From: Mariprofundus sp.
Lineage (GTDB): Bacteria > Pseudomonadota > Zetaproteobacteria > Mariprofundales > Mariprofundaceae
Assembly: GCA_021772775.1 (NCBI GenBank)
Contig: JAJFLH010000006.1
Location: forward strand, 124,001-188,000
Length of the DNA: 64,000 bases
Direction: 5' to 3'
In this document: positions 9,799 to 13,742 of the stretch, piece after piece
How positions within the stretch are numbered: the stretch's first letter is position 1
Layout: each line of letters begins with the position of its first letter
Made by a program: the position numbers and the translations under genes
The notes under the pieces: model-generated
Seen by the model: the letters and a program-made list of their open reading frames with translations, nothing else
Database searches by the model: none
Told to the model about the DNA's origin: nothing

Positions 9799-11061
9799 AT
9801 GGCTGATGCAATAACAATTATGCAGGCGCTGGGAAAACATGCAAAAGAGGCGGCTAAGGCCATGCGGGTGGCAGATACATGCGCTAAAAACAGTGCCTTA
9901 ACGCTTGCCGCGGCAATTATTCGTCGTGATATGCAGCATATTCTGGCTGCCAATGCCAGAGATATGGATGCGGCAGAAGAGAATGATCTGGATGCTGCGC
10001 TAAAAGACCGACTACTGCTCAATGGTGAGCGGGTTGATGCGATGGCTGAAGGGTTAGAGCAAATTGCGGCATTGCCGGACCCGGTTGGGGCGATTGATAA
10101 TTTGCGATACCGTCCATCAGGTATTCAGGTTGGCCATATGCGTGTGCCACTTGGTGTGATCGGGATTATTTATGAGTCGCGCCCCAATGTGACTGCTGAC
10201 GCTGCGGGTTTGTGTTTGAAGTCTGGTAATGCGGCTATTTTGCGCGGTGGTTCGGAAGCCATTCATTCCAATCGTGCGATTGCGGCATGTCTCAGACGTG
10301 CGCTGGTCGATTCGGGTTTGCCTCAAAATGCAGTGCAGTTGGTGGATTCCACTGACCGCGCTCTGGTTGGTGCGTTACTGAAAAGTGAAGAGTATGTCGA
10401 TGTGATCATACCACGCGGTGGTAAATCATTGATTGAACGTGTGACGGCTGATTCACGCGTTCCAGTGATCAAACATCTCGATGGTATTTGTCATGTCTAT
10501 ATTGATGCCGCAGCAGATCCTGAGATGGCGTTAAGTATTGCGGTCAATGCGAAAACACATCGTTATGGTGTTTGTAATGCTATGGAGACACTGTTGATTC
10601 ATCAGCAGTCAGCAGCAGTGGTTCCAGTTATTATGCAGGCTCTGTTGGAGAGGGGCGTGGAAGTGCGAGGCTGTGACAAAACATGCCAATTAAGCGATGG
10701 TCTTGATGTGGTTTTAGCTACTGAAGAAGACTGGGCGACGGAATATCTATCGGCAGTGTTGTCGGTGCGTATCGTGGATGACTTCGATCAGGCCGTTGAG
10801 CATATTGCACAGTTTAGTTCGGGTCATACCGAAAGTATTGTGACGGCGGATTATGACGCGGGTCAGCGTTTCTTGCGTGAAGTAGATTCAGCATCGGTGA
10901 TGTGGAATACGAGTACACGTTTTGCAGATGGCTTTGAGTATGGTTTAGGGGCTGAAATAGGTATCTCGACCGACCGTTTGCACGTGCGTGGCCCCGTCGG
11001 CTTGGAAGGTTTGACCAATCAGAAGTGGATCGTCTTGGGTAGTGGCCAAGTTCGACAGTAA
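9799..11061 (+). CDS. proA: Gamma-glutamyl phosphate reductase
   Basis: Second step of proline synthesis: NADPH-dependent reduction of glutamyl-5-phosphate to the semialdehyde. The 420-residue aldehyde-dehydrogenase-fold protein has [22 protein letters not shown] and the active-site Cys in [14 protein letters not shown] (near residue 259). The C-terminal [23 protein letters not shown] is the family signature. It follows proB closely. It is the last gene of the coupled unit before the unusual MotA/MotB-like pair. Confidence 0.97.
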
Positions 11062-11218: not shown

Positions 11219-12205
11219 ATGCAGGAATTAGAGCACGGAAGGACTATTCTGAAACGAATGGGGATTATAGGTGTGGCTGCAGTGGCGCTGGCAGTCCTTT
11301 TTTCGGATACCTTAGGGATGATCTATTTCTCTAACCAGCAAACGATGGTTGGTTATATTCTGAATGGCTTTATTTTTATACTGTTTCTCTTCGGAATGGG
11401 ACGGGTATTCAGTATTTTGAATGGTTACCGTAAAGAGGAGGATGCGTTGAGTCAGTTTCAGCGCAACAAAGACCTTGGGCCAAATCATTTCCTAGAAGGT
11501 GTTGATCCAACTTCGATCATTGCCATTAGAATAGAGCTTTTGAATAGCATGCGTGTCAAACGTACCGCGATTCAACATCAAGCCATAGCCTCTACCTTGA
11601 TGGCGGAAGAGAGTACGCGTACGGGTACCGTTCGCTTTTTGCACAATATTCTGATTTTGTGTGGTGTATTGGGTACCATTGTTTCCTTATCCATCGCACT
11701 GTTAGGTGCTGGTGATATGTTAAGCGATACCTCAACGACAGGCGGGATGGGCTTAGTCATTCATGGTATGTCTACAGCACTTTCCACTACAATGAGCGCG
11801 ATTCTTTGTTACTTGGTTTTGGCATACTTCCTCTCCGCTATTCAGAATCTTCAGACACGCTTTTTAGGTCGTGTTGAAGAGTTGACGTCGACCTATCTTT
11901 TGCCTCTTTATCAAGTCAGTGAAGAGTCTATTTCACAGCAGGCGGTAGATATGGTGAGTCAGGCTCATCAGTTGCTACAAACGATCAATGAGAAAATAAG
12001 TCTGCTAAACTTTACCGATATGCAGGAGGGCTTGCAGCAAGAACGCATGCATGCGAATCAATTGCATCAAGCGGCAGTTGAGCAGGCACAAATGCAGCAT
12101 GAACAGATGGCAGCACAAGCGCAGCAGCAGCATGAAGAGTCCAGGCAGCAACTGGCCGAGCTCTCTTCTATTCTGAAAGATGGATTCAGATTGCCAGGAG
12201 CATAA
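11219..12205 (+). CDS. MotA/TolQ/ExbB-like ion-channel protein with a Gln-rich helical tail
   Basis: A 328-residue membrane protein with four predicted segments: about 15-33, 43-62, 143-167 and 183-210. TM3 carries LCGVLGTIVSLSIALLGAGDM and TM4 region STALSTTMSAILCYLVLAYF, matching the paired motifs of MotA/TolQ/ExbB channel subunits. A cytoplasmic loop lies between TM2 and TM3. After residue 230 a long helical, Gln/His-rich tail (QAQMQHEQMAAQAQQQHEE) would lie in the cytoplasm, recalling ZorA on a smaller scale. A MotB-like partner follows 3 nt later. It is neither flagellar nor TolQ by context. The complex is probably an ion-driven stator with unknown output. Confidence 0.8.
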   Translation: MQELEHGRTILKRMGIIGVAAVALAVLFSDTLGMIYFSNQQTMVGYILNGFIFILFLFGMGRVFSILNGYRKEEDALSQFQRNKDLGPNHFLEGVDPTSIIAIRIELLNSMRVKRTAIQHQAIASTLMAEESTRTGTVRFLHNILILCGVLGTIVSLSIALLGAGDMLSDTSTTGGMGLVIHGMSTALSTTMSAILCYLVLAYFLSAIQNLQTRFLGRVEELTSTYLLPLYQVSEESISQQAVDMVSQAHQLLQTINEKISLLNFTDMQEGLQQERMHANQLHQAAVEQAQMQHEQMAAQAQQQHEESRQQLAELSSILKDGFRLPGA

Positions 12206-12208
12206 ACC

Positions 12209-12946
12209 ATGCAGCAAAGTGGATTTATTGACTTGAGAATTGATAGTGCTGATACAGACGGCGCGAACTTTTGGCCGGGTTTTACCGATGTGATGACTGT
12301 GATTGTTCTCATCTTCATCATGACAATGCTAAGCCTGTTGGCGAAAAATATGGGTCTGTTGGATGAATTGACATCGGCAATAGAGCTGGAGCGTGTAGCG
12401 CAAGCTGAAGTGAAAACGATGACTGAGATTAATGAAGACCTTAACTATCATTTGATCGGTTTAGAGGAAGAGTTGGTTCAGATGCAGTTAAGTTTGGCCA
12501 GTGCTACTGAAAAACATCGTCAAACTTTGATTCGCCTGGGTAATAGTGAACAGGCAAATGCGATATTAAATACCGCACTGGCAGATAGTCAGAGTGAACT
12601 TGCTTCAGTTCTGGGTGAGAAAGATGCCTGGAAATTAGAGCAGTCTAAATTAAACTTAAAGAAAGCCATGCTGGAAAATAGCCGATCCAGGTTTAGAAGG
12701 AAAAGTAAAAAGTTGGGTGATGAACTTGCTGACATCAGGGCTGAGTTTGATGAGCGGGAGCGTAAAATTCAGCAGGATATGGTGGAGCTGGAGCAACTGC
12801 GGGCCAGCAATGTTTACTGTTTCCAAATGGGTCAAGAGGAAGCTAGGAAAGAGAGAGAAGCCCGAGAAGAGAGGGAGCGTAAGGCCGCTGCTTCTTCACA
12901 AACCCCTAGTCAGGTTGAATCAGCCTTATCATCGTTTTTTGAATAA
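12209..12946 (+). CDS. MotB-like single-span coiled-coil protein without an OmpA domain
   Basis: A 245-residue protein. FWPGFTDVMTVIVLIFIMTMLSL (residues 21-43) is a MotB/ZorB-type start with one membrane span and an Asp (D27) where the ion-carrying residue sits. Family members then have an OmpA-like peptidoglycan-binding domain. Here residues about 50-225 are instead a long heptad-rich coiled coil (VAQAEVKTMTEINEDLNYHLIGLEEEL onward) ending in a Glu/Arg-rich stretch. The start has no strong Shine-Dalgarno sequence but lies 3 nt after the MotA-like stop. MotB topology would put the coil in the periplasm, though the charge pattern does not settle this. Confidence 0.75.
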   Translation: MQQSGFIDLRIDSADTDGANFWPGFTDVMTVIVLIFIMTMLSLLAKNMGLLDELTSAIELERVAQAEVKTMTEINEDLNYHLIGLEEELVQMQLSLASATEKHRQTLIRLGNSEQANAILNTALADSQSELASVLGEKDAWKLEQSKLNLKKAMLENSRSRFRRKSKKLGDELADIRAEFDERERKIQQDMVELEQLRASNVYCFQMGQEEARKEREAREERERKAAASSQTPSQVESALSSFFE

Positions 12947-13091
12947 CGTATTGGTTGCCGGCATGATTCATAGGCTGGTGTGATGATTAATGTGGGCTAG
13001 AACTCTTTTGTTGTTTACTTATTTTCGTTGATTGAGTTTCAAAATATTCATTCTGCTGTGATAAGAGCGCGTTGATCAGGTGATAGATACC

Positions 13092-13742
13092 GTGAGTTCA
13101 GTCAAACCAATAAATAAAATAGGTCTGTTCGGGGGCTCATTTGATCCGCCGCATCTTGGTCATGTGGCATTGGTGCATGCTGGTTTGGCGATGGGGCTGG
13201 ATGAAGTGTGGGTTATTCCTGCTTTTCCGGTGCATCGTGTTCTATCCGGCAAAGCCGATGCTGGAACTCGCCTCTTATGGCTTCAGCAGCTCTTTGAGTC
13301 CGAGCCCAGAGTCAGGGTTCTTGACTGGGAGGTATCTCAATCCAAGCCAACACCTGCGGTACATACCCTGCGCAAATTTAAGGCAACATACCCTGGAATC
13401 GTACCTTGGTTGATGCTGGGGCAGGATGCCTGGCAGGGCTTGGAGTCGTGGTTTGAATACCCATCTCATCAGAAGTTGTGTAATGTCGCCGTGTTTGCAC
13501 GACAGAGTGATGAATTTGATGAAACCTCAAACAGATCAACTTCACATACAGGCTGGCAAACGGTGGCAATGGATCGTTGGACAGAATGTGTGACGCCAGG
13601 TCACTACTGTGATGTTGCAGTGCTGTTGCCAGATGTTTCGGCCACGCTGATTCGTAAAAATGCAGCCATGGGTCTGTCTTTAACTGAGTTAGTGCCTAAA
13701 GTGCTGCAGTCCGATATTGCCAGACAATATCGAAAAAAATGA
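13092..13742 (+). CDS. nadD: Nicotinate-nucleotide adenylyltransferase
   Basis: Transfers AMP from ATP to nicotinate mononucleotide to make deamido-NAD. GLFGGSFDPPHLGHVAL near the N-terminus is the nucleotidyltransferase HxGH signature, and SATLIRKNAAMG near the end corresponds to the ISSTxIR motif. The GTG at 13092 is chosen because AGGTGA (13078-13083) lies 8 nt upstream; an in-frame GTG at 13080 lies inside that site. Length is 216 residues. It starts a nadD-rsfS-rlmH-envC-ctpA run. Confidence 0.95.
   Translation: MSSVKPINKIGLFGGSFDPPHLGHVALVHAGLAMGLDEVWVIPAFPVHRVLSGKADAGTRLLWLQQLFESEPRVRVLDWEVSQSKPTPAVHTLRKFKATYPGIVPWLMLGQDAWQGLESWFEYPSHQKLCNVAVFARQSDEFDETSNRSTSHTGWQTVAMDRWTECVTPGHYCDVAVLLPDVSATLIRKNAAMGLSLTELVPKVLQSDIARQYRKK

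Follow-up and report, generated by a model that had tools for sequence, protein, structure and literature searches.

The 64,000-nucleotide stretch of Mariprofundus sp. DNA analysed here, referred to as the window, carries two genes resembling the A and B subunits of an ion-driven stator, and raises the question of what such a motor could do with a B protein that stops short of any distal domain. A preliminary description had regarded the pair as a new type of stator, inserted between two housekeeping genes, in which a coiled coil takes the place of the usual OmpA domain. Taken as a whole, the evidence is best explained by a 5:2 ion-driven motor. Its A gene would have been transferred to this site along with a copy of B, and that copy, now without its cap, would act as a second axle; we put the probability of this reading at roughly 0.7. 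The features on which it is based are collected in Table 1.

Table 1. Features of the A–B insertion and its flanking genes, in positions of the window.
Feature	Position	Strand	Residues	Basis or remark
proA	9799..11061	+		left flank of the insertion
A, MotA/TolQ/ExbB/ZorA-like membrane protein	11219..12205	+	328 aa	four spans, C-terminal helical tail
A core, TM3-TM4 ion-path block, ..GTIVSLSIALLGAGDML...GGMGLVIHGMSTALSTTM	11669..11794	+	151-192	alignment of 40 A
A C-terminal motif GFRLP	12182..12196	+	322-326	GFR invariant in 40/40 aligned relatives
Short B, MotB/ZorB-like one-span protein	12209..12946	+	245 aa	without the family C-terminal domain
Short B, start of span with putative ion-binding Asp27, FWPGFTDVMTVIVLIF	12269..12316	+	21-36	family alignment
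Short B, long helical segment	12356..12823	+	~50-205	alignment with the full-length B model
nadD	13080..13742	+		right flank of the insertion

Both open reading frames lie where the preliminary description had placed them, and its reading of A as a protein with four membrane spans and a cytoplasmic helical tail is consistent with the AlphaFold2 model (mean pLDDT 87), in which long cytoplasmic helices are a prominent feature. In a Foldseek comparison of this model with the PDB, the top matches were ExbB, ZorA (from the ZorAB structure 8vvn), the flagellar stators PomA/MotA and TolQ; the probability was ~1.0 despite E values of 0.004-0.05 and TM scores of 0.3-0.4 (by query), figures that are usual when distant monomers are compared. 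Among 40 aligned A sequences the TM3-TM4 block, which includes the HGMSTA block, is the best-conserved region of the family, with G152, T153, T186, T190 and T191 invariant. The predicted four-span fold and the conserved TM3-TM4 ion path are those of the broad ExbBD/TolQR/MotA superfamily, in which A would be placed, and the GFRLP tail is a candidate cytoplasmic partner-binding element.

Sequence profiles give no clear assignment to a TolQR/ExbBD or flagellar group, in line with the preliminary description: window A reaches 9.4 bits against MotA_ExbB (PF01618), under the Pfam gathering cut-off of 22.9 bits, and 26 of the 40 A family members match that profile at E<0.01 (best E 8e-6). Window A has no match in a ZorA profile search; across the family, ZorA models match up to 20 A members, at best 7e-7 and partially. 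A search of PDB sequences with the A profile returned coiled-coil noise only.

A scan of bacterial and archaeal genomes with A yielded 83 loci, of which 80 were kept. Their hosts are Mariprofundus, other Zetaproteobacteria and Gammaproteobacteria (Sedimenticola, Chromatiales, Thiotrichales and others), and include the cultured organisms M. ferrooxydans PV-1, M. erugo and Sedimenticola hydrogenitrophicus. At nearly all of these loci a B-like gene lies directly downstream of A, so that a two-gene unit is the usual layout; with 80 loci of relatives in which A and B are almost always adjacent, the window pair is more than a chance juxtaposition, and its stator-like character, as first proposed, holds. 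Strong A matches occur in 27 of 78 Zetaproteobacteria genomes, all 27 of which also contain B, and one further genome has B only, as a fragment at a contig edge; among these 78 genomes A is thus never found without B, even where the two are unlinked. The neighbours of representative A–B loci, named by eye, are housekeeping genes (cystathionine synthase, tgt/queA, thiC, tolC, glycerate kinase, dnaB and others) with no common theme that would offer a functional clue. No description of this family was found in the literature searched.

The normal, full-length B of the family is ~290-360 residues long, with a highly conserved domain, RPAR...YVRIIFPDDSGLSY.EAW...YDYYYQ, at its end. In an alignment of 46 such proteins the start, FWPSFTDIM with Asp27, is conserved, the helical middle varies, and the C-terminal domain, with the blocks RPAR, YVxIxxP, SGLSY, EAW and YDYYYQ, is nearly invariant. 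In the AlphaFold2 model of the full-length B encoded elsewhere in the window genome, residues 28-239 form a helix, which is followed by a beta-beta-beta-alpha-beta-alpha domain predicted with high confidence. Neither Pfam nor the solved structures offered a convincing match to this end domain; the similarity to RNase-H-like folds (probability ~0.6, low TM) is weak and was treated as no match. An OmpA domain (PF00691) is absent from window B and from the 46 full-length relatives, as the preliminary description had stated for the former, and ExbD/TolR (PF02472) is not among the matches listed for the 46 at E<=0.01. A search with the family B profile recovers ZorB (8vvn_B) at 6e-6, the match covering the N-terminal part, and conversely ZorB models match most B members over the N-terminal part and adjoining helix, at best ~1e-9 and partially. 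In three gammaproteobacterial members (L031, L047 and L056), 518-560 residues long as called, the helical middle is much longer and the end domain is the same.

The short B of the window ends upstream of the conserved RPAR...YDYYYQ domain. The only other protein of this kind is found in Mariprofundus OFTM13 (G009), is 248 residues long and 68% identical, and lacks the same domain; the sample of short B proteins therefore comprises two genomes, one of them a 70%-complete MAG. Both proteins share the terminal ..SFFE, and the reading frame is intact in both species despite a protein difference of 32%. At the other end, the MotB/ZorB-type start recognised in the preliminary description is borne out by weak N-terminal matches to ZorB (E 1e-4 for the window protein) and to PRK09039/PRK09040 profiles (E 1e-5 to 1e-3). 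Of 19 N-terminal positions conserved in at least 85% of the B family, 15 are unchanged in both short B proteins, among them Asp27, whose surrounding block is common to the whole family; judged by alignment, D27 is the acidic residue in the B span that 5:2 ion-driven motors carry. Alignment with the full-length B model suggests a single long helix for the remainder of the short B; the helical segment would extend ~23 nm if straight, compared with ~27 nm for that of full-length B. For the window protein alone, the hydrophobicity peak at a period of 3.50 residues is not above that of shuffled sequences, 108 of 500 of which reach it. The proposal that a coiled coil stands in for an OmpA domain therefore holds as regards the missing OmpA domain and the long helix; what has been lost, in this lineage specifically, is a different and unnamed domain.

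The A stop codon and the short B start are separated by 3 nt and are in the same frame, an arrangement that suggests the two are co-translated. Scans for promoters and terminators around the pair returned no more than scans of shuffled sequence.

By its predicted anatomy the pair is of the ExbBD/TolQR/ZorAB class, with the defining marks of no single named family. Like ExbBD and TolQR (PF01618 with PF02472), it has a four-span A with a TM3-TM4 ion path, and ExbB is the best fold match; it differs in that window A falls under the Pfam cut-off, the B helix runs ~190 residues beyond the span, the end domain of full-length B is of another kind, and no TonB or TolA gene is near. The A–B logic and the Asp in the B span are shared with the flagellar MotAB/PomAB stators, from which the pair is set apart by its lack of an OmpA-type domain and by the housekeeping neighbours, none of them flagellar, at all loci inspected. 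The window genome contains separate ExbBD- and TolQR-type pairs, together with two MotAB-type pairs with OmpA-like B proteins (read by eye). Zorya ZorAB (PDB 8vvn, 8qyd) resembles the pair in the A fold and C-terminal helical tail, in the Asp-containing B N-terminus and in the weak profile matches, whereas ZorB ends in a peptidoglycan-binding domain absent from window B. The nearest parallel in composition is Myxococcus AglR, an A-type protein that works with two B-type proteins, AglQ and AglS (PMC9389320); there both B proteins have TolR-like peptidoglycan-binding domains, whereas here one of the two B proteins has lost its end domain, and no gliding genes are near the pair. The family would also belong to the generic ion transporters (GIT), a broad non-flagellar class with varied extra domains (PMC12505986), in a study whose main text names neither Zetaproteobacteria nor Mariprofundus. 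Judged by homology and predicted structure, the A–B family makes up a conserved group of ion-driven rotary motors, as yet unnamed, whose axle is very long. The window pair is cap-less, as the view of it as a new, coiled-coil-ended variant had it; its short B is, however, a derived, truncated paralogue within a conserved family whose normal B ends in a domain.

In 15 Mariprofundus genomes that lack the pair at this site, proA adjoins nadD directly with a spacing of about -17 to 283 bp; this identifies the window pair as an insertion, as had been suspected. In the window genome (G000), a full-length B without an adjacent A is located at G000:C22:42712-43710. The same split of A from B is present in three other genomes: OFTM13 has A and the short B at the proA site, on a contig that ends just past the short B and before any junction with nadD, and a lone full-length B on G009:C310; in Mariprofundus EBB-1 (G011) and AMOR20_M1282 (G006), the proA–nadD interval holds only A, and a full-length B is found elsewhere. 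The lone full-length B of all four genomes is flanked by a gene block, including a DUF1841 gene, that in another genome (G014) lies beside a normal pair of A and full-length B; this shared block marks the position of the lone B as the ancestral site, from which A has moved. In two further Mariprofundus genomes, G013 (L176) and G022 (L177), the proA–nadD interval is occupied by other, unrelated inserts (~0.7 and ~1.2 kb), and it thus seems prone to insertion.

The trees agree with vertical inheritance of the A–B loci within Mariprofundus. The four relocated A proteins form one clade (SH-aLRT 100), sister to the A of G014 (99), and the full-length B proteins of the four split genomes also form a clade (98). 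The two short B proteins group together, with a long branch (1.77 changes per site) leading to them, and fall within Mariprofundus, with the B of G014 and the four full-length B proteins, at moderate support (SH-aLRT 86). Non-synonymous change in these genes is clearly held back: when the window species is compared with OFTM13, A and the short B both have a dN/dS of 0.09 (0.03 over the first 60 residues of the short B) and full-length B one of 0.16, values that are approximate because synonymous sites (dS) are near saturation. At ~0.09, the short B is a maintained, diverged duplicate under purifying selection and not a pseudogene.

Synteny and trees together show that the ancestor of the four Mariprofundus species acquired an A–B copy between proA and nadD, after which A disappeared from the ancestral site and full-length B stayed there. 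In the window species and OFTM13 the B copy at the new site has since shed its distal domain and diverged under selection, and in EBB-1 and AMOR20 it has been deleted. By homology and predicted fold, A and B are probably the subunits of an uncharacterised 5:2 membrane motor related to ExbBD/TolQR/ZorAB, in which five A would surround two B and ions passing between the TM3/TM4 threonines of A and Asp27 of B would drive rotation. The long B helix, periplasmic if the topology of MotB/ExbD applies, would carry this motion through the periplasm, and the distal domain of full-length B presumably grips a load or an anchor. In each of the four species A most likely still functions with full-length B, despite their separation in the genome, the best evidence being that A is never found without B; that the genome has a single A of the family and that none of the four species has lost full-length B likewise suggest that A serves full-length B too. 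The short B would then most likely be a second axle that tunes or diverts the motor, either in mixed dimers with full-length B or in an alternative motor disengaged from the usual load. Somewhat short of even odds, in our estimate, is the broader proposal that one pentameric ring is shared by two unlinked axle genes, with and without a load-binding domain, whose exchange or mixing alters output, the cap-less axle arising by duplication, domain loss and fast divergence.

Two other accounts of the short B itself have to be weighed against its role as a second axle. In one, A5 and a short B dimer make up a separate, self-sufficient motor that engages its own load through the coiled coil, as the preliminary description envisaged, and full-length B remains for the older function only. 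The adjacency and probable co-translation of the two genes, and the long branches of both after relocation, fit this arrangement; we nevertheless consider it unlikely, since the genome has only one A of the family, full-length B is retained in four species, and in two of these A occurs without any short B. In the other, the short B is a relic of the duplication on its way to being lost, and function rests with A and the remote full-length B alone, as might be expected from the outright loss of the B copy at the same site in two sister species and from the near-invariance elsewhere of the domain that is missing here. A remnant is quite improbable in view of the intact reading frames, dN/dS of ~0.09 and shared terminus of two proteins that differ this much, and of the constraint, which is strongest at the ion-path end. 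A pseudogene or an assembly error is likewise disfavoured by the intact frames and the dN/dS, and also by the 133-bp gap between the short B and nadD, which contains no trace of the end domain in any forward frame.

The remaining alternatives concern the pair's function at large. Zorya systems combine a ZorB bearing a peptidoglycan-binding domain with ZorC/D, ZorE or ZorF/G effector genes (PMC11890865), and weak ZorA and ZorB profile matches in many family members could be read as the sign of a related defence module. No ZorC/D/E/F/G-like gene accompanies the pair in the window or at representative loci, which are surrounded by housekeeping genes and, within Mariprofundus, show vertical inheritance, and no OmpA-type peptidoglycan-binding domain is present, which makes such a module very improbable; the proA and nadD flanks also bear out the earlier remark that flagellar, Tol, Exb and Zorya neighbours are absent. 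A link to the twisted stalk is attractive because stalk-forming Mariprofundus cells rotate, and the pair is indeed present in the known stalk formers PV-1, M. erugo and EBB-1 and absent from two complete genomes, tentatively those of the dread formers CP-5 and CP-8. The stalk gene sfz2 was recognised in the PV-1 genome by its MshEN and glycosyltransferase make-up and its position next to a BcsB-like gene. Its presence and that of the pair do not track: sfz2 (78-79% identity) occurs without the pair in G015, G016, G019 and G020, the pair occurs without sfz2 in G013 and G022, and many Gammaproteobacteria have the pair. The link is thus unsupported, and a role of the motor in stalk formation extremely improbable. 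Two of these genomes, G019 and G020, contain two sfz2-like stalk genes each, ~78-79% and ~66% identical to that of PV-1.

The locus amounts to a natural experiment, in which an axle has been deprived of its end domain and its ion-path end has been kept by selection, and the role of the distal domain in such motors becomes directly testable. One A with two types of B has so far been best known from Myxococcus AglRQS.

Outside the window, the same genome contains three more MotA/ExbB-like genes, at G000:C20:148545 (L130), G000:C25:100956 (L131) and G000:C3:23544 (L132). In each case the next protein is hydrophobic over a stretch at its N-terminus, has a part that resembles a coiled coil and contains a von Willebrand A-like domain, recognised by Pfam as VWA_2 in L130 only and by eye, from the motif DATGSMHG, in L131 and L132. 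The family A profile matches the A proteins of L131 and L132 at ~1e-8.
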